Origin: Rhodamnia argentea
Lineage: Eukaryota > Streptophyta > Magnoliopsida > Myrtales > Myrtaceae
Assembly (NCBI RefSeq): GCF_020921035.1
Contig: NC_063151.1
Coordinates: 23,504,934-23,568,933 of the forward strand
Direction of reading: 5' to 3'
DNA: 64,000 nt
Part shown: in pieces, positions 47,606-64,000 of the stretch
How the letters are laid out: every line of letters begins with the position of its first letter
How positions within the stretch are numbered: the stretch's first letter is position 1
The notes under the pieces: generated by a model
The model's database searches: none
Told to the model about the DNA's origin: nothing
Seen by the model: only the letters and a program-made list of their open reading frames with translations
Made by a program: the position numbers and the translations under genes

Positions 47606-48214
47606 TCACACCTTCACTGTCGTAACATGCTTGATCAACATCCCAGTTATGTCCTCCGAAACTTTCGAAGCTGATTCTTTCAAGTTCTGGATTTTCGCAC
47701 CTGTTTCTTCTTCGAGCCTCTGTACATTCGCTCCAGATGCCCCGCCCGTCTACGAGTTACAAACGGCGAGCATTAGCTCACACAAACGACTACACAAAGT
47801 AACTGAGAAGAGAAGGTTTTTTTGGGCTGCAAAATAAGCAGAGACTACCTCAGCAATACTCTTCTGGTACTCACTCTCTAGATGTGATCGATATGTTGCG
47901 ACATCCTTTTCCGCTTCTTCCTTCGCTTTTTTCAATCTCGTGATCTTTACTGTTGAATCGAACAAAAGAAATAGCCGAACCAATCGGCGGTTAAGAGCAA
48001 TGAAAAGATATGACTGGAGGAAATTCTCTCACCCACACGATAAACTTGTTCTTCCGAAACGAGAACATCAATGTAAACGACATCTTAAACAAGTTAAAGA
48101 AACGCAATTTGCTGCTCAATCCTTACGATTCTTGGCGCTCGAAATGATCTGTTGAGCCTCCTGTTCTGCAGTCAACAGCATCTGAATCCCGCCTTGTCCC
48201 TTCATGGAATCCAT
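47606..48214 (-). CDS. VHA-G: V-type proton ATPase subunit G
   Basis: Three exons read leftward: 48214-48127, 47949-47849 and 47749-47606. Phases match (1, then 0), giving 110 residues, the family length. It begins [20 protein letters not shown], like the plant VHA-G isoform starting MDSLRGQGG, followed by the charged helix [20 protein letters not shown], a linker, and [20 protein letters not shown] up to the end HVTTVKV. Subunit G pairs with subunit E to make the peripheral stalks that hold the V1 head against the rotor, so it acts on the cytosolic face of vacuole, trans-Golgi and other endomembranes during proton pumping. The upstream ATG (48214) is chosen over the one at 48205 because family members carry the MDS prefix. 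A TIR element sits about 350 bp upstream. Confidence 0.95.
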
Positions 48215-50731: not shown

Positions 50732-50952
50732 GAGGTTCTGTTTGTTTATCGAAATGGATGATTTCAAAAATGTTTTTTGAAAAATAATTGTTTATATCGC
50801 CCAAAATAATAATTGATGAAAAATGTTATCATTATTAACAATGATTTACATCTAAATATTTTCAATATTTTATGTTTATTTTGAAATATAAGCCATCATT
50901 TTACGAAAAATATTTTTGAAATAATTCTTGTAGCATGGAACAAATAGAGCCC
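50732..50952. mobile_element. Short MITE with GGCTCTATTTGTTCC-type ends
   Basis: The left end 'gaggttctgtttgttta' is inverted at the right end 'ggaacaaatagagccc'. The interior is AT-rich and itself partly palindromic ('aatgttatcattattaacaatg', 'tgaaaaataattg'). About 220 bp with no coding capacity. It butts directly against the left arm of the large Pack-type element. The target duplication is not clear. Confidence 0.6.
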
Positions 50953-51143
50953 GCATTAAAGAAATTTTGGGACATATTTATTAGAAGTCCTAAAACTTGT
51001 CACGAAAGTGCAATTGATTCTTAAAACTTGTAAAAAGTGCAATCAAGTCCTAAAACTTATCAAATTGGTTCAATCGAGTCATTCTGTTAATACCATCAAT
51101 TTGTCTAAAGAAAAATGCTGACGTGGTATTTTTAAATTAATTT

Positions 51144-51897
51144 CTTTATCCCATATGAAATTTTTAATCATTTTCTTTTTCGAAATCTTTTTGCAGTTAA
51201 ATTAAAAATTGAAAAAAGCTAAAATTTTATTTGAAAAAAAAAAAGGCGGGGCCTTGCCGGTGAGGCCCCGCTACCGTCGCTGCCCATCGCCGGAGAGGCC
51301 GACGAAGGTCGCCAACCCTAGGAGAGGGTGGTCGGCGAGGCAAGGGCGAACAACGCCTTGCCCAAATCTAGATTGATATTTTCTCACGGTTGCTTTGTTC
51401 TCCCCTCATCCACTCGCGCCTCAACTCCCTTATATTGCCATTTCATCTTCCCTTTCGATTCACGACGATTTTGGAGCTTCTTCCATGTACACATTCTTTC
51501 TGTCCTCGTATTTCTCTCTCTTAGACATTGAACGGAACCAACACTCGATTTCTTTGTAACTCGCTTCCGACCATAGTACCGAGGCGGCTCTTATGTCATC
51601 GCATCATGTTCGAGTGTTGATTGGTGCCCATGAATGCTTCTTGGTGTTGTTTCGATTTTTCGCTCGTTCGTTAGTACCGGATATGGGTTGAAGAAACCCA
51701 AACCTCACCAGCCCTTGCCTAGGGCTGGCGAGGGCTAGCGACCTCCACCAACCCCTCTGACAATGGGCGGCGGCGTGAGTGGGGCCTCAATGATGAGGCT
51801 CTGCCCCCTTTTTCCATTTTTTTTTCAAATAAATTTTTAGCCTTTTTACAATTTTAGTTTAATTTAAAGAAGATTTTGAAAAATAAAATAAAATTAA
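51144..51897. mobile_element. Foldback element inserted in the left arm
   Basis: Arms 51144-51345 and 51700-51897 are imperfect inverted copies. Both have an AT-rich outer part ('tttttcgaaatctttttg' against its inverse near 51880, 'aaaaagctaaaattttatttg' against 'caaataaatttttagcctttt') and a GC-rich inner part (ggcggggcc...gaggcc on the left, ggggcctc...gaggctctgcccc on the right). The segment interrupts the outer element exactly where its right arm is continuous ('ttaatttta|ggaaaaatt'). The central 350 bp (51346-51699) is unlike the arms and could be captured DNA; I did not recognise a gene in it. Confidence 0.65.
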
Positions 51898-52149
51898 GAG
51901 AAATTTTCAATTAAGAGCTCGAAGTGCTATGATTTTCTCAAAAAATGGCTTAAAGTGAACCTTGTTTCAAAGAAAGGCACGAGTACCCTCTTTATTTTAA
52001 AGAAGGACCTGGCCGAAGGACATTTTCATCTTTTATCATTTTAAATTATTTTATTTTTCTTTCTTTTTTGTTTTCCTTTCACCGGGACCGGCGTCGAGCA
52101 AGGGTTGCCTCCAATTCGCCGGCCCCTTTCACTAAGTTCAAAAGAAGAG

Positions 52150-52364
52150 GGCCAGTGAGTCAAACCCCTTTGTAATCCCCAACTTCCCCAGAGAAATCAC
52201 ATTGTCCAGGATGTTGTTGCCGGACTTAGTCGGGGAGGAGACCGAGTCAACCAAGTTCACAACATGGTGAAGGAATCGGAGAAGACGAGCTTCAGAGTCG
52301 TCATGAATAGCTTCTACGAGCTTGAGCCGAGCCTTCGTTGACCATTACGGGATTTTCTCTCGGG
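52150..52364 (+). pseudogene. UDP-glycosyltransferase (UGT73-like) fragment, 5' part
   Basis: Across two frame changes the strand reads SNPFVIPNFPREITLSRMLL, PDLVGEET, then MVKESEKTSFRVVMNSFYEL and EPS/FVDHY. This is the stretch of group D UGTs that runs from the variable acceptor region to the 'NSFYELEP..ADHYR' motif. A stop follows the first shift (near 52285). The piece begins without any start codon and stops at 52364, where copia is inserted. Its continuation is at 60255. In living genes such enzymes move glucose from UDP-glucose to flavonoids, coumarins or other small molecules in the cytosol; this copy is dead. Confidence 0.85.
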
Positions 52365-52369
52365 AGATG

Positions 52370-52790
52370 TGTAAAATAAATGTAGCCCATATGATGTCAT
52401 AATAATGGTGTAATAATTATTTCATGTTATAATTAAGTTATATTAGTTATGAAAGGATACAATTGAAAAGGTGCGATTTTGACGTGCTTTGATGGAAGGC
52501 ACCTCTTGGACAACATTTCAAGTTTAAAAGAAGTTTGGTCCTTTCTCCACCATATCAATGAACAGACATTAATTACGTGACGTACGGTTGTCTCTCTCCA
52601 TCAGAAACAACGTGAAAGAACAGAGGGTTAAGGGAGAGAAATCAAGTCTTCATCTTTATTACGTCGATCGTTCTTGAATAATCGCTATGGATAAAGGTAC
52701 GTTCTTCATATTTGTTGATTGTGAAAATCATGAAGATCGAAGATTCGTATATGATGAATATCAACATAAAGTTTACGTTAATCGCTTACA
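52370..52790 (+). repeat. Copia 5' LTR
   Basis: 421 bp from TGTAAAATAA to CGCTTACA. It shares long stretches with the 3' LTR (for example 'gatggaaggcacctcttgga', 'acgtgacgtacggttgtctc') but differs at many scattered sites and by a few indels, so the insertion is not recent. Confidence 0.95.
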
Positions 52791-54229
52791 ATTGATATCA
52801 AAGCATGGTTTAGGATCTCGTGATTTTCCGATTATATCAGTTATGTATATGTACTTATGGATCAAGGCTCGATGAATTTTCGTGGTTTTGATAAAATTGT
52901 GGGGCATGATGAATTCACGTTGGCGTTTTTACTTATGGATTAATTTTTGGGGTTTTTAGACGTTTTGCAATATTGGCTACTTTTCGATTCTTGAAAGAAA
53001 ACGCCGATTCCGGCCAAATACCAGTCACCCACCACCCAAAATTTGTATAATAGGGTTACATCGCCATGGGCAACAAAAGCCCTAAGTTTGCTCGGCATTA
53101 CTGTGATTGGCAGAGGCGAATCAAGTGGCGGAAATCTCCGTGGTTAGGGTTTACGTTTAAGAGAACTTTACTTGATTTCTACCAAAATTCTTGGCCATTT
53201 TCGTTGATTTAAGGGCCTATGTGGTTGTGTCGGAATGGTCTCCAAAATCCACCAACTAATTTGTTTGGGGGTGGGTTGTCGGAAGAGACCCATGTGAAGA
53301 TAAGACCGGCGGAGCACAAAAAAAAAATTGCGTCTGTTTGCTTAAAGGAGGAGTTTACGCTAGGACAAAGAAGGCGCATGGAGTCCACATGCCACACGCG
53401 TATGATCCACAATCCCGTGAGGGCAAACATGCACCTGCGCGTGCTGGGCACACGCCAAGGGTTGGATTTTCCTTTTTACCCCTACTGTTTTTTCCATTTC
53501 ATTGTTTTGTCCTTTTAAAAAAAAATACAGTTTTGCCCTAGTTTTGTCCTTTTGTGAAAATTACAAATTTTGCCTTGTTTTGTCCTCTTACGACAAAATT
53601 ACTGTTTTTCTCATGAAGCCTAATTATAGATTTTCCCTTGACACATAAATTTACTATTTTGGCCGTAGATGTTGAATTTACGATCTTGCCCTTGGACACA
53701 TGAATTTAATAAAGTTTGAAAAGTTAAGGGTTTATTAGTCACCAAAGGGGCCAAACCTTAAGTTTCTTGAGTTTTTGAAATTCATAATTTTTTATTCAAT
53801 CTTATATGATTATTTGATGCTATGCTTGAAATTGATATGTTTCATATCTTTATTGGTATCATGGATATATTGAAATTCATTTATTATAAGAACTTAAGGA
53901 TTAACCAAAAGGTTAATTAATTTCTTATAATTCATGAACATAATGGTTGGTAACTCAAATATCTTATTAGATTTATTTGTATAACCAAAGATAGCAAATA
54001 AATTTTAATGAGATATATCTATAATTGCCAAATAAAAGTTGTTAGCATCATTATGGTTTAATATATGTTGGAGTATCATAGGATCTCCCAAAGGAAAACT
54101 ATGATATACATGTAATGTTTACTTTGAATACGATCGTGATATTCACAAAGCGTTAATGTATGAGTATTTTCTTGCATACATGTAGTATCTATACCCATTT
54201 CTCTTCATTCGCAAACTTCATCTGTTCCA
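52791..54229 (+). other. Copia leader region, no recognisable coding sequence
   Basis: Starts with the degenerate primer-binding site (52791-52808). The remaining 1.4 kb is longer than a usual copia leader. The part around 53200-53520 has a different, GC-richer composition and overlapping short frames without homology that I can see, so a small foreign insert is possible. Confidence 0.45.
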
Positions 54230-54843
54230 ATAGAATGAATTTCTCTAATTGGGGTGAATAAGTCCAATTTCACTCAAGTGTCATATATCTTGATTTAGCA
54301 CTTCAAGTTGAGAAACCGGCTACTATTACTGACGAGAGTAGCGATGATGAAAAGTTTTTCCATAAAGCTTAGGAAATATCGAACAGACTAAGCTTAATGT
54401 TCATGCTAATGACAATAGCGAACAACTTAAACACCTCACTTCCCAAAACTGATAATGCTAAAGAATTTATGAAATTTGTGAAAGAGCGTTCTCAAACTAC
54501 GGACAAGTTACTTGCTGGTACACTGATAAACACTTTGACCACCATGAAATATGCTGGTTTACGTACCATGCATGAACATATACTTGAGATGACGAACTTA
54601 GCAGCAAAGTTAAGGACTTTGGGAATGAATGTGGATGAGTACTTTTTAGTGCAATTCATTCTTAATTCCTTGTCTCATGAGCAATATAGGCTATTTCGGA
54701 TGAATTACAACGCTATAAAAGATAAGTGTAATGTAAATGAATTGGCCAGCATGCTTGTACAAGAGGAAACAATGATAAAGAATCAAAAGGCTCATTCTGT
54801 TCATCTCTTAAGTCATCAAGAGCCCGAAAAGAATTCCAAATGA
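54230..54843 (+). pseudogene. Copia Gag remnant
   Basis: The N-terminus NFSNWGE (about 54236) is followed by stops. An open stretch from 54397 includes AKEFMKFVKERSQTTDKLLA, MTNLAAKLRTLGMNVDEYF, LVQFILNSLSHEQYRLFRMN and VNELASMLVQEETMIKNQK. These match the UBN2/Retrotran_gag copia nucleocapsid family. The Lys-rich tail that precedes the zinc knuckle is seen, but the knuckle itself is gone. Confidence 0.9.
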
Positions 54844-54885
54844 AAAGGTGGGAAAGATAAAAGAGCAAGAAGAAAGGATTATTGT

Positions 54886-57000
54886 GACGCCATGGAAATA
54901 TGTCGATTGTAAGATGCCGGAATTTAATAAAATGATGAAAATTGGATTTCGGTCTGTACGAAATTTTGGAGCGTAAGGACGTAAGTGACAATTATTCGGA
55001 CGATTCCCGAGTTGTCGATCGGTTTAGATTATGTTTCGAAAGTCTTAGCCGCCGCGATTGAGGATTTTTAATCCTCATACCTAAGCTTACTCTTGATCGA
55101 GCCCGGTGCGAGTTGCAATGACCTGATCGACCAAGCGCAGCCCCGGCACCCAAGGCCCGCAGTTCGGCGCCCCGCCACCTCCATCCACCACCCTTGCCTG
55201 TTGAGCTTCAACCGTCACCAAACCCCGCCCGACCCGGGACCCCTTTCGGCCTCCTCCGTCCGACGCTTCCGTTAGCCGCGGCCCCGATCGCAACTATTAC
55301 GTCGCCTCACCACTCCATCGCGCCGTTGCTTCACGGCCAAGACCCACCGTTCATCGTCGCCCCCACTTCATGCTACCACCAGCCCGACGACTTTTGGCCG
55401 CCACCACCTTAGCCTGTCGAACCCGAGACCTCTATTTCCCCCCCGCTAACCCCGCCACCTCTGTCCCGAGCCAACCGGCCCCTATAACCCCGAGGAGCCC
55501 ATGGGTCGTTGCCGCCGACGAGCTAGCCAGAGCTTCTTGCCCTCTGCCATGACGCGGTGCCATCAAGCCCGAGCCAACTCAAGCCTATGAACCGTCACGA
55601 CCCACCGTCTTGAGCGCGTGCCGCAGAGGTTACTGACCTGTGAACGATTGCCGGCCCGTGAACAGTACCCGATCCGAAAGTTTCGTGCCCGACACCGACT
55701 CACTGTTTTTCTTGTGAGTTAAACCCCTAAATCCCGATTAGGGCGCTAATTACGCTTAGTTAGTGTAATTAGCCTAATATGGTGTTTATGTAGCTTAATC
55801 GTGATCAATTTAAATAGAGACTAGGTTTAAGTTAAATGGCCACGATTAATTAAGTCGATCTGCTAGTCGGGTTGTCAACGGCTATTTGGTGATTAATTGG
55901 ACTAATTGTTTGGGCAATAATTGTCGGTGTGTGTTTACGAGCGAGCAATAGGACAGAACCGAGTTGACGCTTGATTGTTTGTTGGTAGGACTTTCGATAG
56001 TTGAGTTATAAATCTGGATCAACTTTTATCGTCAAATTATTGAAATATGTACGGTTGATTGTCCCGATTGCATGTCTGGATGCTTAGTTTTGCGTGTTGG
56101 ATGTTATCGGTGAAAATTATGGGTGTCGGTCCCATGTTTTCGGATGCAAAGTCTGGTGGATAATCGGTACATTCATGCGAATCGAGTGAAATCAAATTGC
56201 ATATTTTAGCATGAAAACGGCATGGTGCCGAGTCCTTGATCATGATCGTATGAGCATCCGGCTAAGTGTAAAGATAAGAATTTGACTAGTTGTTGTCGGA
56301 TGCGCTTGAATGATCACGTAATGGTTGTCCCTAACAAGATTGTACCGTGTAGATCGGAATTACACGACTTGTTAGATCCACGTCAATCCGTATCGTCGGG
56401 TTGATCGGATGCCGGTCGCAGCTTGTGACGGACCAACGCTCCTTTTGGAATGCACGCTATGTCGTGCCACGTCGATCGGAATTACAACGGCACGGTAGTC
56501 GCCGTCACCGAAGTAACGGGACGATGCCTAGTCCCGCCAGTAGAGCACCAACTGCCTAGTGTGTTAGGCACCAACTATCTAGTGTGCCGGGCCATGTAGC
56601 CTCATCTGTTAATAATTGGATTTCATGTGGTGTCCTGTGCATGCAAGTTGATATGATGTCTTGCCGGTTATTTATCGGCGGTGGATGTTGATTTGAGTCA
56701 AGCATTGCATTATGCGTGGGCGAGGACTAGTAAGTTGCACGTGCTTGAATTATATGCTTGATACCTTGTGGTTGTTGCCTTATAGGATTTTTCGAGTGAA
56801 TCAACATCCTAACCGGACTTAGGCGTTGACTCACCGAGATTCATATTTCACCCCGTCGTTGTTAACCATTTTCAGGCCCTTAGTCTTAAAGAGCTAGAAG
56901 TGGCGTGGATCTTATTGGAGTAATTTGGGAGATGTGTTAATTTCGACTTGATATCTTCAAGAGTTGTAGAAAGTGTCCCGAAGAATGGGCTTGTAAATAA
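54886..57000. mobile_element. Gypsy-type LTR-like insert inside the copia element
   Basis: Begins TGTGACGCCATGG directly after the Gag tail and gives way near 57000 to copia integrase. About 2.1 kb. It is GC-rich in 55080-55730 (short Pro-rich frames there are not genes) and holds no retroviral domains, as expected for a large gypsy (Tekay-like) LTR. Since the copia protease and the first part of integrase are also absent, the event was more than a clean solo-LTR insertion; a deletion accompanied it. The right edge and target duplication are not fixed. Confidence 0.55.
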
Positions 57001-57008
57001 TTCATAAA

Positions 57009-57758
57009 TCTCAATCAATGAATGCACTTGAAGTGTATATTAAAGAGGTTAACAGACAATTAGATAAAAAGGTGAAAATAGTAAGGTCGGATAGAGGTGG
57101 TAAATATTATGGAAAGTATGATGAATCAGGATAATGTCCTAGTCCATTTGCCAAATTTATTGAAAGACATGGTATTTATGCTCAATACACAATGCTAGGT
57201 ACACCACAACAAAATGGTGTACGCGAAAGGCGTAATCTTACTCTAATAGAAATGGTTAGGAGTATGATGAGTTATTCATCTTTACCCTCATCTATGTGGA
57301 TGTATGCATTAAAGACTTCTATGTACTTATTAAACAAGATTCCTAGTAAGGCAGTTCCAAAGACTCCCTTTGAATCATGGACGGGTAGAAAACCTAGTTT
57401 ACGACACTTACATATTTGGGATTGTCCAGCTGAAGTACGTATTTACAATCTACATGAAAAGAAATTGAATTTTAGAACGACCAGTGATTATTTCATTGGT
57501 TATGTAGAAAAATTCAAGAGGTATAAATTTTACTGTCCTAATCATAATATGAGAATTGTTGAATATGGAAACTCTAAGTTTATTGAGAATTGCGACATCG
57601 GTAGGAGTGAAAGAATACGTAATGCTTACATTCAAGAAGTTATGGTAGAGGTTCCTTTACCCAAAACTTCTAAAGTTGTTCGTGATATTATTGTTCAACC
57701 AAACAATAATCAAGAACAACAAATAAATGATCAAACAATTCATAATGAACATGGTTGA
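57009..57758 (+). pseudogene. Copia integrase remnant
   Basis: Reads QSMNALEVYIKEVNRQLDKK and KIVRSDRGGKYYGKYDES, an interruption by stop codons at about 57131, then GTPQQNGVRERRNLTLIEMV, which holds the third catalytic acid of the D,D-35-E triad (E of RER). WMYALKTSMYLLNKIPSKAV and WTGRKPSLRHLHIWDCPAEV follow. The N-terminal zinc-finger part and the first catalytic aspartate are missing to the left. Confidence 0.92.
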
Positions 57759-57984
57759 GCCACTAAAAATAGCATTAAGAAGATCTCAAAGGGACAAAAA
57801 GTCAGTTATTTCTTATGACTATGTGGTTTATCTACAAGAGTCAGAAATTGACTTAGGAATTGATAATGATCTAGGTTCATTTTCACAAGACATGGATTGT
57901 TGAATTGTGCGGGATATTGTTGAATTGATAATGATGCCATAAAAGAAGAGTTAAAATTTATGAATCGGAATCAAGTTTAGGATA

Positions 57985-58632
57985 TTGTTGAATTGTCTAA
58001 AGGATGTAAAAAGGTTGGCTGTAAATGGGTCTTTAAGACCAAGCGTGACTCAAAATATGATATTGAACGGTATAAGGCCACACTTGTTGCTAAAGGTTTT
58101 ACTCGGAAAGAAGGCATTGATTATAATGAGACTTTTTCACCGGTCTCTAAGAAAGATTCACTTAGAATCATTTTGGCTTTGGTGGCTCATTAATATTTAG
58201 AGTTATACCAAATGGATGTGAAAACTGTCTTTCTTAATGAAAATTTAGAGGAATAGATTTATATAGACCAACCTAAAGGTTTTCGGTTAAAGGAAAGGAA
58301 TACATGGCGTGTAAATTAAAGAAGTCAATGTACGAACTTAAACAAGCTTCCCGACAATGATATCTCAAGTTTAATGATACAATAGTCTCTTTTGGGTTTA
58401 AGGAAAACAACGTTGATCGGTGTATATATATAAAAATCAATGAGAGCAAATTTATATTTCTAATTCCGTACGTTGATGACATTTTGCTTGCTGTTAATGA
58501 TCTTGGTTTGTTACATGAACCAAGAAATTTCTCTCTAAGAAGTTTGAAATGAAAGATATAAATGAGGCAACATATGCGATGGGAATAGAAATATTCCGTG
58601 ATAGAACACAGGAATTGTTTGGGTTGTCTCAA
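57985..58632 (+). pseudogene. Copia reverse transcriptase remnant
   Basis: Reads [40 protein letters not shown] and [18 protein letters not shown], then LYQMDVKTVFLNENLEE after a stop, and the catalytic box PYVDDILLAVND (YVDD at 58469-58480). Frame shifts and stops are frequent, so no active enzyme can be made. Confidence 0.92.
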
Positions 58633-59447
58633 AAAGCTTATATTAGTAAAATTCTAGAAAGATTCAATATGAACAAATGTTCAGCGGGAATAGTTCCAAT
58701 TCAGAAATGGAACAAATTTAGCCTTATGCAATATACGAAAAATGAATTGGAACGTGAGCAAATAAAAAGTATTCCTTATGCATCTGTTGTTGGGAGCTTA
58801 ATGTATACTCGGACTTGCACCGGACTAGACATTGGTTTCGCCATCGGAATGCTGGGCAGGTATCAAAGTAATCTAGGATGGATCATTGGAAAGCTGCAAA
58901 GAAAGTTTTCAGATACTTACAAGGAAGGAAGGATTACATGCTTACTTATAAAAGATCCAATCATCTTGAGGTGATTGGATATTCAGATTCAGATTTAGCC
59001 GGATGCGCCGATACAAAGAAATCAACATTTTGTTATTAGTTCCCTTTGATTGGAGGTGCAATTTCATGGAAAAATACAAAGTAGTCGGTCATTGCTGCAT
59101 TCACTATGGACGCCGAGTTCGTGGCATGCTTTGAGGCAACTATTCATGGATTATGGTTTCGAAACTTTATTTCAAGGCTTGTGATTGTCGACTGTATTGC
59201 CGGACCGCTGAAAATTTCTTGTGATAATTCTGCAGTAGTTTTCTTCTCTAAGAATGACAAGTATTCTAAGGGTACTAAGCATATGGAAATCAAATACTTG
59301 TCCGCCAAAGAAGAAGTTCAGAAACAAAGAGTGTCAATTGAGCATATTAGCACCAATCTTATGATTGCATATCCATTAACAAAAGAAATATCACCCAAAA
59401 CATTTAATGAACATGTTAAAAGGATGGGCATTATTGGACGTCACTAA
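58633..59447 (+). pseudogene. Copia RNase H remnant
   Basis: Begins with the connection region (SLMYTRTCTGLDIGFAIGML, HLEVIGYSDSDLAGCADTKK) and ends with MDAEFVACFEATIHGLWFRN, PLKISCDNSAVVFFSKNDKY and KHMEIKYLSAKEEVQ, the usual C-terminus of copia Pol. Stops at about 59036 and 59083 break the frame. Confidence 0.92.
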
Positions 59448-59836
59448 TGATATTGTATTATGACTCTATTAGTTTCTGTATTTGACACTCAGAGCTCATT
59501 TATGTGTGTTTCTAATTTATCATGTTTTCTACTTAGTATACGTGATGGAAGTAGATAATGTTTGAGAGGATAGTCTCTAACAGAGATATTATAATTGGAT
59601 CATTGATATATTTCTTATCTATGAATCATGATGAGTAGAGAGTTATAGTTGTAGTACATAAAAGGGATTGTATCGATTAATGACACATAACCGCTATGAC
59701 TCGCATTAGTCTAATTTACTTTATTGTAGTTATTATTTGATAGCCAATTAAAGAAAAGTTTTAACATGATGTTATTGTGCACATTATGGTATTTATTAAA
59801 CCATGAAAGGAAACTCATATAGGCCAAGTGAGAGAA

Positions 59837-60249
59837 TGTAAAATAAATGTGGCCCATATTAATAATGGTTTAATAATTATTTCATGTTATGATTAAGTTA
59901 TATTTGTTACGAAAGGATACAATTGAAAATGTGCGATTTTGAAGTGCTTTGATGGAAGGCACCTCTTGGATAACATTTCAAGTTTAAAAGAAGTCTGGTC
60001 CTCTCTTCACCATATCAACGAACATACGTTAATTACGTGACGTACGGTTGTCTCTCTCGATCAGAAACAACGTGAAAGAACAGAGGGTTAAGGGAAAGAA
60101 ATCAAGTCTTCATCTTTACTACTCCGATCATTCTTGAAGAATCGCTATGGGCAAAGGTATGTTCTTCATATTTATTAATCGTGAAAATAATGAAGATTGA
60201 AATCCATATATGATGAATTTTCGCATAAAGTTTATGTTAATCGCTTACA
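59837..60249 (+). repeat. Copia 3' LTR
   Basis: 413 bp, counterpart of 52370-52790. Preceded by a weak purine tract 'aagtgagagaa' (59826-59836). The last base is followed directly by AGATG, the repeated target. Confidence 0.95.
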
Positions 60250-60254
60250 AGATG

Positions 60255-60690
60255 ATCTTGGTTCGTAGGCCCATTCTTATTGTGCAGTAAGGAGATTGAG
60301 GACAAAGCAAACAGGCAACCAAGCATCCATAGACCAGCACAAGCGCCTCAAGTGGCTTGATTTGAAGTAACCCAACTCGGTGATCTATATTTTGCTTCAG
60401 AAGCATGGAGAGTTTCAATGCTGCTCGGCTCCACGAGATCGCAATCGGATTGGAAGCATCGGGGTAACAGTTCATCTAAGTGGTGAAGAATGGCCCAAAT
60501 GTGGAAGAAGGCAGAGAAGAGTGGTTGCCCGATAGGTACAAATCGAGAACCCAAAACAAAGGCCTCATCGTGAGGGGTTGGGCTCCTCGAGTGCCGATTC
60601 TCGATCGCGAGACGATGGAGGCATTCGTGACATATTGCAAGTGGAACTCAATCTTGGAGGCGATCATAATCGGTGTCGGGCGACACTAGC
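60255..60690 (+). pseudogene. UDP-glycosyltransferase (UGT73-like) fragment, 3' part
   Basis: Continues the piece broken at 52364. In shifting frames it reads ASIDQHKRLKWLDLK and PNSVIYI, then SFNAARLHEIAIGLEASG, and from 60480 an open stretch NGPNVEEGREEWLPDRY, KSRTQNKGLIVRGWAP and VPILDRETMEAFVTYCKWNS. This covers the first two-thirds of the PSPG sugar-donor box; the box normally has an HCGWNS core, here YCKWNS. It then departs from UGT sequence at about 60680. Because the pieces on both sides of copia abut in UGT order, they were one fragment before insertion. Confidence 0.88.
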
Positions 60691-61085
60691 TCGAGCGAGG
60701 GTCAATCGACGGCGGCGTGGATAGCCATGGCTTATGAGGGGAAGGGGGAAGAAAAAGGGAAAATAAAAAATAAAATAAAAAGAAAAGGAAATGAAAAAAA
60801 TTTAAAATGGTAAAAGATAAAAATATTATTCGGCCAGGCCTTTCTTTGAAATAAAGTTCACTTCATGCTCTTATTTGAGAAAATCGGAGCACTCTAAATC
60901 TTTAATCAGAATTTTTCCTAAAATTAATTTAAAAATATCACGTCATTCCTTTCCGTTAGATAAATTGACAGTTTAAATAAAATGAGTTGATTGAATCAAT
61001 TTGAAAAATTTTAAGATTTAATTATATTTTTCTTTTGTAACAAGTTTTAGAAATTATGGTGAAAACATATCCAAAAAAATTCTAA

Positions 61086-61326
61086 CGGAACTCGCCTCAC
61101 CCGACATTTCTAGACAGACTAGACTGCGTTGCCGCGTCGACTCGGCTCGGCTCACCTTTCCACGGCTCTCCGACTTCTGCTGCAACTTTTCTTTTTCTGT
61201 TCTAGATCCCGCGTGCGACACCGAGTGCGTCCGTTGTCTTGCCATCGCAGCAAGAGTTCGAATCTGCGACTCGAGCTTCTCTTCTTCTTCTTCTTCTCTC
61301 GCGACTCGGGGAAGAAGGCGACCGGT
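61086..61326 (+). promoter_or_regulatory. Promoter and leader of the GT29 gene
   Basis: Only about 240 bp separate the right arm of the Pack-type element from the start codon, so the core promoter and leader are in this short, GC-rich, CT-rich stretch ('cttcttcttcttcttct' at about 61279-61296). Confidence 0.5.
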
Positions 61327-64000
61327 ATGAGGGTGTTGCGGCTTGGCCTCTTGCTCGCGCTCGCCTCCGGACTCCTCGCGCTCTGCATCTACATAACCGG
61401 CGTCTCCGATTTCTGTATCCCTCCCGCTCTCGATTCGCGATTTTCTCTTCGCTCGTTTGGTCGCCCGCAATCAAATGCATTGTGATTATTGACCTGCCGT
61501 ATCTGTGTCTTTGCTCGTGTGTGGCAGACGGTGGCTATCGGCTCTCCGACGACGATTTGGACGCTCTGCGGTCTCTGCAGAGCCAGTTCCAAAAGTGCGT
61601 GGTCAGTCATCTCCCTCCCTTTTCTTCTCTCCTCTTTTTCGGATCGATCGTGTGGTGGGAACAGTTATGATTCGCACCTTGCCGTTCGTGTAGAAGGCGA
61701 ATGGATTGGGATTAGAAGCTGTCAGTGGGAAGAGTATCTGTGAAGTCGCCTTGAGCTTCCCTCCTGACACTGTTTCCAAATGGGTGGGTGATTGGGATCT
61801 TCTTGCCAGTTGAGGCACTGCGTTGTCCGTGGGCAGTTGGGTTTCTTTTTTATTTTTTAAGTGTAAAATGGGTTTTGTTTGACAGAAAGATCCCAAATCT
61901 GGAGAACTTGAAGGTTTGTCTTTCGATTTCAATCTTTGTGAAGCTGTAGCTACATGGGAACAGGTGAGCCTAGGGTTGGCAAATTGAAACACAAATTGAG
62001 ATATTGAAGATAGGATAGAGTAAATGTGGCCTTAAACACCCCCCCGGCCCCCCTTCCTTTTCCATGGAACTTGGTTCCTGAGAAATCAGATACGCTATGC
62101 GATTGATTTATTATGTAGCGAGTTGATTGCCACAGGTGAGGAATAGTACCACTATACTTACCAGGGAGTTCCTTGATGCTTTGCCAAATGGGTGGGAAGA
62201 CTATGCGTGGCGGAGGATTAACAAAGGAATACAACTGTAAGTATCATGTAAATTTCTCTCGATGTTGTTCATAGTTCGATTCGGCCCTCGCTTGGTTAGA
62301 GAATGCCATAATGTTAGGAAAAGAAAGAAACATTGGGGGTAGTCTATGGGATGGAATTTATTGACATTTCTTCAAAATATAGGAAATTTTGTTCTTGCAT
62401 ACAGTCACTTCTGGCTGCTCATATGTATGAAGTTTGCTTTGCAAATGAAATTAGTAGCGTCCGATGTCTTCCCTTGGTTATGTTCTTCCAAAGTTTTAGT
62501 CACCTTAGGGAGTTGTTATATGAAATTTGTATAGCTAACTAGAGTGAGCTGCAGAAAGATTGCACACAAGTAGTCTGACGAGGTACATTTTTGTGTTCCA
62601 GCAACCAATGTGAAAATAAGACTCTATGCAAGGAGAAACTTTCTCTGGTACTTCCTCAAACCCCCCCATACTTTCCACGGCAGTTCGATCGCTGTGCTGT
62701 CATTGGTAACTCTGGAGATCTTCTAAAAACAAGGTTTGGAAAGGAGATAGATGATTATGATGTTGTCATCCGGGAAAACGGTGCACCTATCCAGGTCAAA
62801 TTTCATAGTGCATGTGCAAATTTCATTTCTACTCTACTTAACCTGCTCTTGACTATCTTTGTATACCAGAATTACACGGATTATGTAGGAAAGAAAAGTT
62901 CATTTCGTCTTCTGAATAGAGGATCTGCAAAAGCTCTTGATAAGGTTGTTGAGTTAGATGGTATGTGTGACACCTGACTTATCATGTTCTCTGACTCCAC
63001 TGGAGATATTGTAACAACACTCTTCTGCAGAAACGAGGAAGGAAGCTCTGATCATAAAAACGACAATTCATGACATCATGAGCAAGATGATAAGGGTCCG
63101 TAAGTTTCCTTTTTCTCTTAATCTGTCTCATAGGCATGTTTGGAGCATCCTCCTTACTTGGCACAAGGTTTGCCTTTTGCAGGAACTTCCTATAAAAAAT
63201 CCTGTGTACCTTATGCTAGGGGCATCCTTTGGATCTGCTGCTAAAGGAACTGGGCTCAAGGCTCTTGAATTTGCTCTATCTATCTGTGAATCAGTAGATA
63301 TGTATGGTTTCACCGTGGATCCTGGTTATAAAGAATGGTATAGATTGTAATTTGCGTATATCATACGACCTCTTTCACGTTTTCACTGTGGATCTCTGGT
63401 TTTCCTAATCATGTGTCCTTCCCAAGTGTTCTCTCAGGACGAGGTACTTTTCAGAATCTCGACAGGGTCATACACCTCTTCATGGTCGGGCTTACTATCA
63501 GATGATGGAGTGCCTGGGGGTATGTGAAGAGTTTATCTACGTTTTTCAATCAAACCTTTAATGTTTTCGATAATAAAATTGGAAGACTCTGGCAATAGGA
63601 TTTGGTTTTACATCAATCTGGTGAAGCATCTAGATGAATTGATTTTTTAACATATCATTTACATGACAAGTCGAATGCAATTCTTTCTTGAGATTTGAAT
63701 CCATTCTTAACTTGTTTCAGTCTTTTATCGTATCTTTGTAATTTGTACTTCCGAAATGTATCATCATCGTATTCTATCCCACTGCATGTTAGAATGCTCA
63801 CCTGTCAGTTTTTGTAATTAACATTATCTAATGTCATTTTTTCATCGTCTTGTAAAGCTCATCAAGAGTTTTAGTAATTAACATTATCTAATGTCATTTT
63901 TTCATCGTCTTGTATAGCTCATCAAGATTCATTCTCCAATGCGTGCTGTTCCAAACCGTGTCGTGAAGTGGTTGCCAAGCCATAGCTTAATCAGAGCTGC
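61327..64000 (+). CDS. Sialyltransferase-like protein, GT29 family (3' end outside window)
   Basis: Eleven exons so far: 61327-61414, 61528-61601, 61694-61783, 61886-61963, 62136-62236, 62602-62794, 62870-62960, 63031-63095, 63183-63337, 63438-63519 and 63918-64000 (cut). Phases agree; about 366 residues seen. Residues 5-27 form a type II membrane anchor ([20 protein letters not shown]). [20 protein letters not shown] followed by [17 protein letters not shown] is the L sialylmotif that binds the sugar nucleotide; [20 protein letters not shown] and [13 protein letters not shown] are in the S-motif region. Plant GT29 members (SIA1/MGP2, SIA2 in Arabidopsis) live in the Golgi and matter for pollen tube growth; the donor is debated and may be CMP-Kdo rather than CMP-sialic acid. 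The last intron carries a 60-bp tandem duplication that includes the acceptor. Confidence 0.93.
63814..63930 (+). repeat. 60-bp tandem duplication covering the 3' splice site of GT29 exon 11
   Basis: The unit 'gtaattaacattatctaatg...cttgta(a/t)agctcatcaaga' occurs at 63814-63873 and again from 63874, with an exact 60-bp offset. The second copy holds the acceptor used (tgtatag|CTCATCAAGA). The first holds a near copy (tgtaaag|CTCATCAAGA) with the beginning of the exon. Confidence 0.9.

Follow-up and report, generated by a model that had tools for sequence, protein, structure and literature searches.

Nested transposable elements can be ordered where one visibly interrupts another, and the locus considered here raises the question of which of its layers came first. 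The window is a 64,000-nucleotide stretch of Rhodamnia argentea (C2:23504934-23568933), in which inverted repeats, long terminal repeats (LTRs) and a piece of a UDP-glycosyltransferase (UGT) gene lie one within the other. The order of insertion was read from which sequence interrupts which. With high confidence, the locus is a nest of four transposons with a linear history: a short Mutator-like element (MULE), here called element A, then a Pack-MULE-like element carrying the UGT piece (element B), then a copia retrotransposon, then a Ty3/gypsy LTR, and last a deletion. An earlier note, made from the letters of the window, had proposed a four-layer stack with a readable order; the stack is real, with its layers in a different order, and the proposed range of 50955-61085 was close to the ends found, 50969-61072.

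The region from 50.5 to 61.5 kb was read and repeat-mapped, seven pieces of the stack were used as queries against the plant's own genome (346.7 Mb in 74 contigs), and the copies were then compared. The best 40 candidates were scored per query, out of 1974 for the left arm of A, 605 for positions 60760-61090, 518 for 51880-52374, 1745 for the Ty3 LTR, 108 for the copia LTR, 73 for the right Ty3/copia junction and 81 for the left one. The best ungapped inverted pair of the window was formed by the arms 51033-51143/60921-61031 (77% identity); the repeat map also gave a second inverted pair, with 84% identity between 51170-51242 and 51817-51889, and two LTRs in direct orientation.

The captured gene piece and the retrotransposons in it

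The two parts of the UGT piece (Table 1) match adjacent parts of seven loci on contig C11, best L028, where they correspond to about codons 177-390 of a 499-codon reading frame. A stop-free piece of the captured gene matches Pfam UDPGT with an E value of 6e-5, just above the curated cut-off, and a second one of 43 amino acids gave no Pfam match. The piece thus derives from a plant UGT gene that has relatives on C11. No terminal repeats of B were found in the examined flanks of these seven relatives. The Kimura two-parameter distance (K2P) to L028 is about 0.17, which limits the time of capture only loosely because L028 may not be the true parent.

When the UGT piece is joined across copia, the empty site aligns straight through in all seven C11 loci, bearing out the earlier proposal that copia entered the glycosyltransferase piece and left AGATG on both sides. 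The element has the LTR pair with TG/CA ends (TGTAAA at the start, CTTACA at the end), the 5-bp target site duplication (TSD) and the gag and reverse transcriptase (RT) domains of a Ty1/copia retrotransposon, from which it differs in its broken frames and an interior deletion of about 0.9 kb. Its LTRs show 36 differences over 413 aligned bases (K2P 0.094). At 1.3e-8 per site per year the insertion would be 3.6 million years old and at the alternative rate of 7e-9 it would be 6.7 million years old, neither rate being calibrated for this plant; gene conversion between the LTRs may also affect the estimate. The first rate is the one used for rice in a passage of PMC1940013. As an object for dating, which the whole stack had been suggested to be, the locus is limited to this one LTR pair. 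In the copia leader, a 36-37 bp unit is present three times in tandem at 53504-53613, and locus L051 is about 240 bp shorter in this region.

Inside copia lies the LTR of a Ty3/gypsy element. Its alignable part begins at 54883-54885 in eight of nine relatives, with differing sequence upstream. The family is recognized by relative L080 on C3, where Retrotrans_gag, Ty3_capsid and RVP_2 domains lie between two same-strand LTR matches; this Ty3-type coding region was seen between LTRs in L080 only, and the copy in the window lacks any coding part. The likeness to Ty3/gypsy elements is thus that members of the LTR family flank Ty3-type gag and protease, the difference that in the window only a 3'-truncated LTR is left. 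Beyond 57004, where the window returns to copia, relatives L041, L081 and L082 are alike among themselves (47, 49 and 51 of 60 positions), and the window matches them by short chance only. Since relatives continue past this point, the window LTR is truncated. Position 57004 was considered as a true LTR end and rejected: the query's own junction stops every match there, and the three relatives go on. Truncation of LTR elements through illegitimate recombination is well described, as set out in part of PMC1940013. Within the LTR, the G+C-rich segment 55105-55667 is unmatched by most listed relatives; it may represent either variable LTR sequence or captured DNA.

The copia sequence beside the LTR is incomplete as well. 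In copia copy L079 about 914 bp separate the sequences flanking the Ty3 site (positions 429 and 1344), and the spacing in 18 copia copies with both sides listed is 639-1140 bp, with a median of 912 bp. Left out of these spacings were one-sided copies and two with very large values (about 8.8 kb on C3 and about 18 kb on C5), which hold other insertions inside or are not one copy. With about 0.9 kb of copia missing next to the LTR, a deletion would have followed the Ty3 insertion. By eye, we take a region bearing a zinc-knuckle-like motif to lie in the lost piece, together with the sequence leading to the integrase core. The gypsy-like LTR that had been read as entering copia is therefore confirmed as a Ty3/gypsy LTR in copia, though not as a clean insertion.

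An alternative for this layer, which we consider improbable, is a complete solo LTR, with copia sequence lost when two Ty3 insertions separated by about 0.9 kb recombined. It agrees with the missing copia sequence, with the CA at the end of the LTR segment and with the fact that no 5-bp TSD is visible around 54883-57004. It conflicts with the sequence shared by three relatives past 57004, because of which this position is not the LTR end. The truncated Ty3 LTR followed by a deletion is the preferred reading.

Elements A and B

The placing of B within the right arm of A rests on copy families and on a TSD. Query 60760-61090 returned two distinct families of copies meeting at 60919/60920 (best 40 of 605), and query 51880-52374 returned a terminal-repeat family over about 51880-52081 and separate UGT-like loci over 52138-52367 (best 40 of 518). 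The ends of the B family start with GGGAAAATTT or similar letters, which sets the limits of B at 51898-60918. Exactly outside these limits TAAAATTAA stands on both sides without a mismatch, and such perfect copies at the predicted place indicate that B sits inside the right arm of A. The earlier note had put the terminal inverted repeat (TIR) element with the glycosyltransferase piece first; it is the later of the two. A further candidate for the TSD of B, GAAATTTTC/GAATTTTTC, was rejected, as the B-family ends show these letters to belong to B's own terminal repeat.

Ten of 18 loci with B matches were entered in a test of the B-family TSD and eight passed end finding; L004, in which B borders directly on A, was not entered. 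The flanks of these eight loci agreed best at a length of 9 bp (0.625 vs 0.409). A Pack-MULE is a MULE carrying a gene fragment, as described in passages of PMC3903597 and PMC3310237, and a TSD of 9-11 bp is given in the latter as a mark of Mutator-like elements. Element B shows a TSD of such length in the window and a cellular gene fragment between its TIRs; it resembles Pack-MULEs in TIRs of about 180 bp, a 9-bp TSD and an internal UGT fragment of about 640 bp, and differs from them in being the single copy with this UGT fragment among the scored matches and in its disruption by copia.

A second contact between the two families was seen at L004 (positions 1421-1499), where the end of a B-family element directly abuts the start of an A element. 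Taking this together with the insertion in the window, B-type elements might prefer A-type terminal repeats or edges as targets, an idea that we regard as unlikely; if true and systematic, one MULE family would be using another as a landing site.

Stripped of later inserts, A measures 1074 bp (50969-51897 joined to 60928-61072, one TSD copy counted). Among the matches listed, many genome copies match 50969-51244 without interruption and often reach 51330. For comparison 20 A loci were taken, a subset of the paired places picked for listed matches on both strands and representing 16 independent insertion sites. Both arm orientations are present in all 20, as inverted pairs spanning 718-1428 bp; the earlier note had named a lack of paired outer arms elsewhere as what would refute it, and in these loci the pairs do occur. 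In the same 20 loci a single match spans 51144-51169. The right arm of A, joined across the B site, pairs with the left arm over about 300 bp, and in 19 of the 20 loci its alignment continues across the junction. The pair 51170-51242/51817-51889 is the inner part of A's own TIRs.

Identity between the flanks of A-family copies peaks at 9 bp, with a mean of 0.653 against 0.412 for swapped flanks (16 independent loci), and at this length at least 8/9 positions agree in 7/16 loci compared with 3/240 swapped-flank controls. That the agreement is best at exactly 9 bp points to a Mutator-like family, for which a TSD of 9-11 bp and TIRs of 100-500 bp are characteristic; the arms of A are about 300-370 bp in the window and in the copies. 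In arm length, in a total of about 0.7-1.4 kb and in the 9-bp family signal A corresponds to a short non-autonomous TIR-MULE, differing from it only in the interruption by B.

Five A loci on C3 between 7.06 and 8.66 Mb (L060, L063, L064, L069 and L070) have flanks that are 84-96% identical and were counted as one insertion site; with shared flanks, they would all go back to one A insertion that was multiplied when a larger segment was duplicated. On C9, L010 and L011/L075 are two oppositely oriented A copies that agree in their end letters, their flank letters and their TSD, CGGTGAAAA, which on these letters is probably likewise a duplicated stretch.

It is highly improbable that A and B together form a single MULE with tandem TIRs and not two insertions. 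PMC3310237 reports such MULEs, Pack-MULEs included, from tomato, Arabidopsis and elsewhere, and what they have in common with A and B is that one place holds two sets of MULE terminal repeats. According to the same paper, however, their internal TIRs are without a recognizable TSD, whereas B has a perfect one; the terminal repeats of A and B also belong to different families that occur apart in the genome, copies of A without B exist, and only one arm of A is cut by B. Two successive insertions, B into A, are preferred.

Scarcely any weight is left for the order proposed earlier, in which the gene-carrying TIR element came first and a separate foldback (51144-51897) then entered its left arm. 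Seen in the window alone, the two inverted pairs of the repeat map do look like an element within an element. The supposed entry site is nevertheless unbroken in the left-arm copies of all 20 loci, the terminal repeats of B are of a different family from those of A, and a perfect 9-bp TSD surrounds B within the right arm of A; the continuous arms and the position of the TSD have already refuted this order. The foldback was also rejected as an independent insertion with its own ends and TSD, the copies of the host arm carrying 51170-51242 continuously (20/20 loci). The segment taken for it is the core of A with its inner arms, and its removal along with copia, as had been proposed, would take out the core of the outer element. 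Whether foldback or copia came first is no longer a question, since B is younger than A and copia younger than B.

Just as little can be said for a Ty3 LTR already present in the copia lineage before copia jumped here, for which no supporting point was found: neither Ty3/copia junction recurs at any other scored locus (39 non-self matches listed per junction, none spanning the right one), and the one match extending 29 bp past the left junction (C1:27473603-27473740; L083) is not copia there.

Several points weigh against the order A, B, copia, Ty3 LTR and deletion. The TSD of B is all A/T, and a chance match in like sequence occurs at about 0.5% (all-A/T 9-mers from A agreed perfectly in 28/5550 pairs); none of the eight B-family loci reached at least 8/9 at length 9. 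For A, some listed matches have one arm only, the 20 loci having been picked for both; L074 is the one locus of the 20 that does not align through the joined B site; about 25 bp near that site are absent from the right arm relative to the left; and the TSD of the window copy is poor, the best match of 8/9 requiring the ends to be shifted within A/T-rich sequence, so that it is decayed or unclear. Finally, the date of the UGT capture and the deletion after insertion are what we infer, not what is observed.

Sequence of events and flanking genes

The history runs as follows, with coordinates in Table 1; the four insertions and their order are shown by the interruptions. Element A landed about 0.26 kb upstream of the present first ATG of a GT29 gene. 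Element B, which is of Pack-MULE type and carries a partial UGT gene, then entered the right terminal repeat of A, duplicating TAAAATTAA. A copia retrotransposon inserted into the UGT piece, duplicating AGATG, and a Ty3/gypsy retrotransposon into copia. Last, a deletion, which we infer because sequence is missing, would have removed the 3' end of the Ty3 LTR, anything 3' of this LTR and about 0.9 kb of copia.

Table 1. Features of the nested stack, in positions of the window.
Feature	Position	Strand	Basis
Element A, oldest and outermost layer, a short MULE-like element with long TIRs	50969..61072	.	Paired inverted copies elsewhere, copy-compared ends, 9-bp family flanks
A left TIR, unbroken, inner end approximate	50969..51336	+	Matches in other copies
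A right TIR, inner part, left of B, inner end approximate	51731..51897	-	Alignment of left arm with B-site-joined right arm
A right TIR, outer part, right of B	60928..61072	-	Arm alignment; family matches switch at 60919/60920
Element B, Pack-MULE-like with UGT piece, in A right TIR	51898..60918	.	Terminal repeats also present in other elements of the genome; TSD
B left TIR, inner end approximate	51898..52083	+	Repeat map and family matches
B right TIR, inner end approximate	60738..60918	-	Repeat map and family matches
B TSD, left copy, 9 bp TAAAATTAA	51889..51897	+	Sequence comparison
B TSD, right copy, 9 bp TAAAATTAA	60919..60927	+	Sequence comparison
Captured UGT piece, first part, interrupted by copia	52138..52369	+	193/228 aligned bases identical to L028 (C11)
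Captured UGT piece, second part	60255..60662	+	346/406 aligned bases identical to L028; Pfam UDPGT
Copia, interrupted frames, about 0.9 kb of interior missing	52370..60249	+	Retrotran_gag_2, RVT_2; comparison with other copies
Copia 5' LTR	52370..52790	+	LTR pair
Copia 3' LTR	59837..60249	+	LTR pair
Copia TSD AGATG, left copy	52365..52369	+	Sequence comparison
Copia TSD AGATG, right copy	60250..60254	+	Sequence comparison
Ty3/gypsy LTR in copia, 5' end intact (TG), 3' end truncated	54883..57004	+	Family matches; family interior L080

The stack seems to lie between two divergently oriented genes. To its left is a V-ATPase G piece on the minus strand (47753-48028, Pfam), and to its right are GT29 sialyltransferase-like pieces on the plus strand (62579-62974 and 63015-63347, the second below the curated cut-off). 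The earlier description as two housekeeping genes suits V-ATPase G better than the sialyltransferase-like gene. Directly left of A, 50734-50952 is a small element-like inverted repeat with arms alike at 70/92 aligned bases and ends GGTTCTGTTTGTT / GGCTCTATTTGTT, resembling a hAT-type miniature inverted-repeat transposable element (MITE), with no TSD shown.

Every component of the stack is of a known kind, and the whole is ordinary plant genome debris. The nest is a worked example of how a reading from the window alone can invert layers, its best ungapped inverted pair spanning two elements; the order was exposed only by genome copies together with the TSD. A possible first ATG of the GT29 gene, whose start we place by prediction, is at 61327, 255 bp past the right end of A, and an edge of the stack so close to it would matter for the promoter history of this gene.

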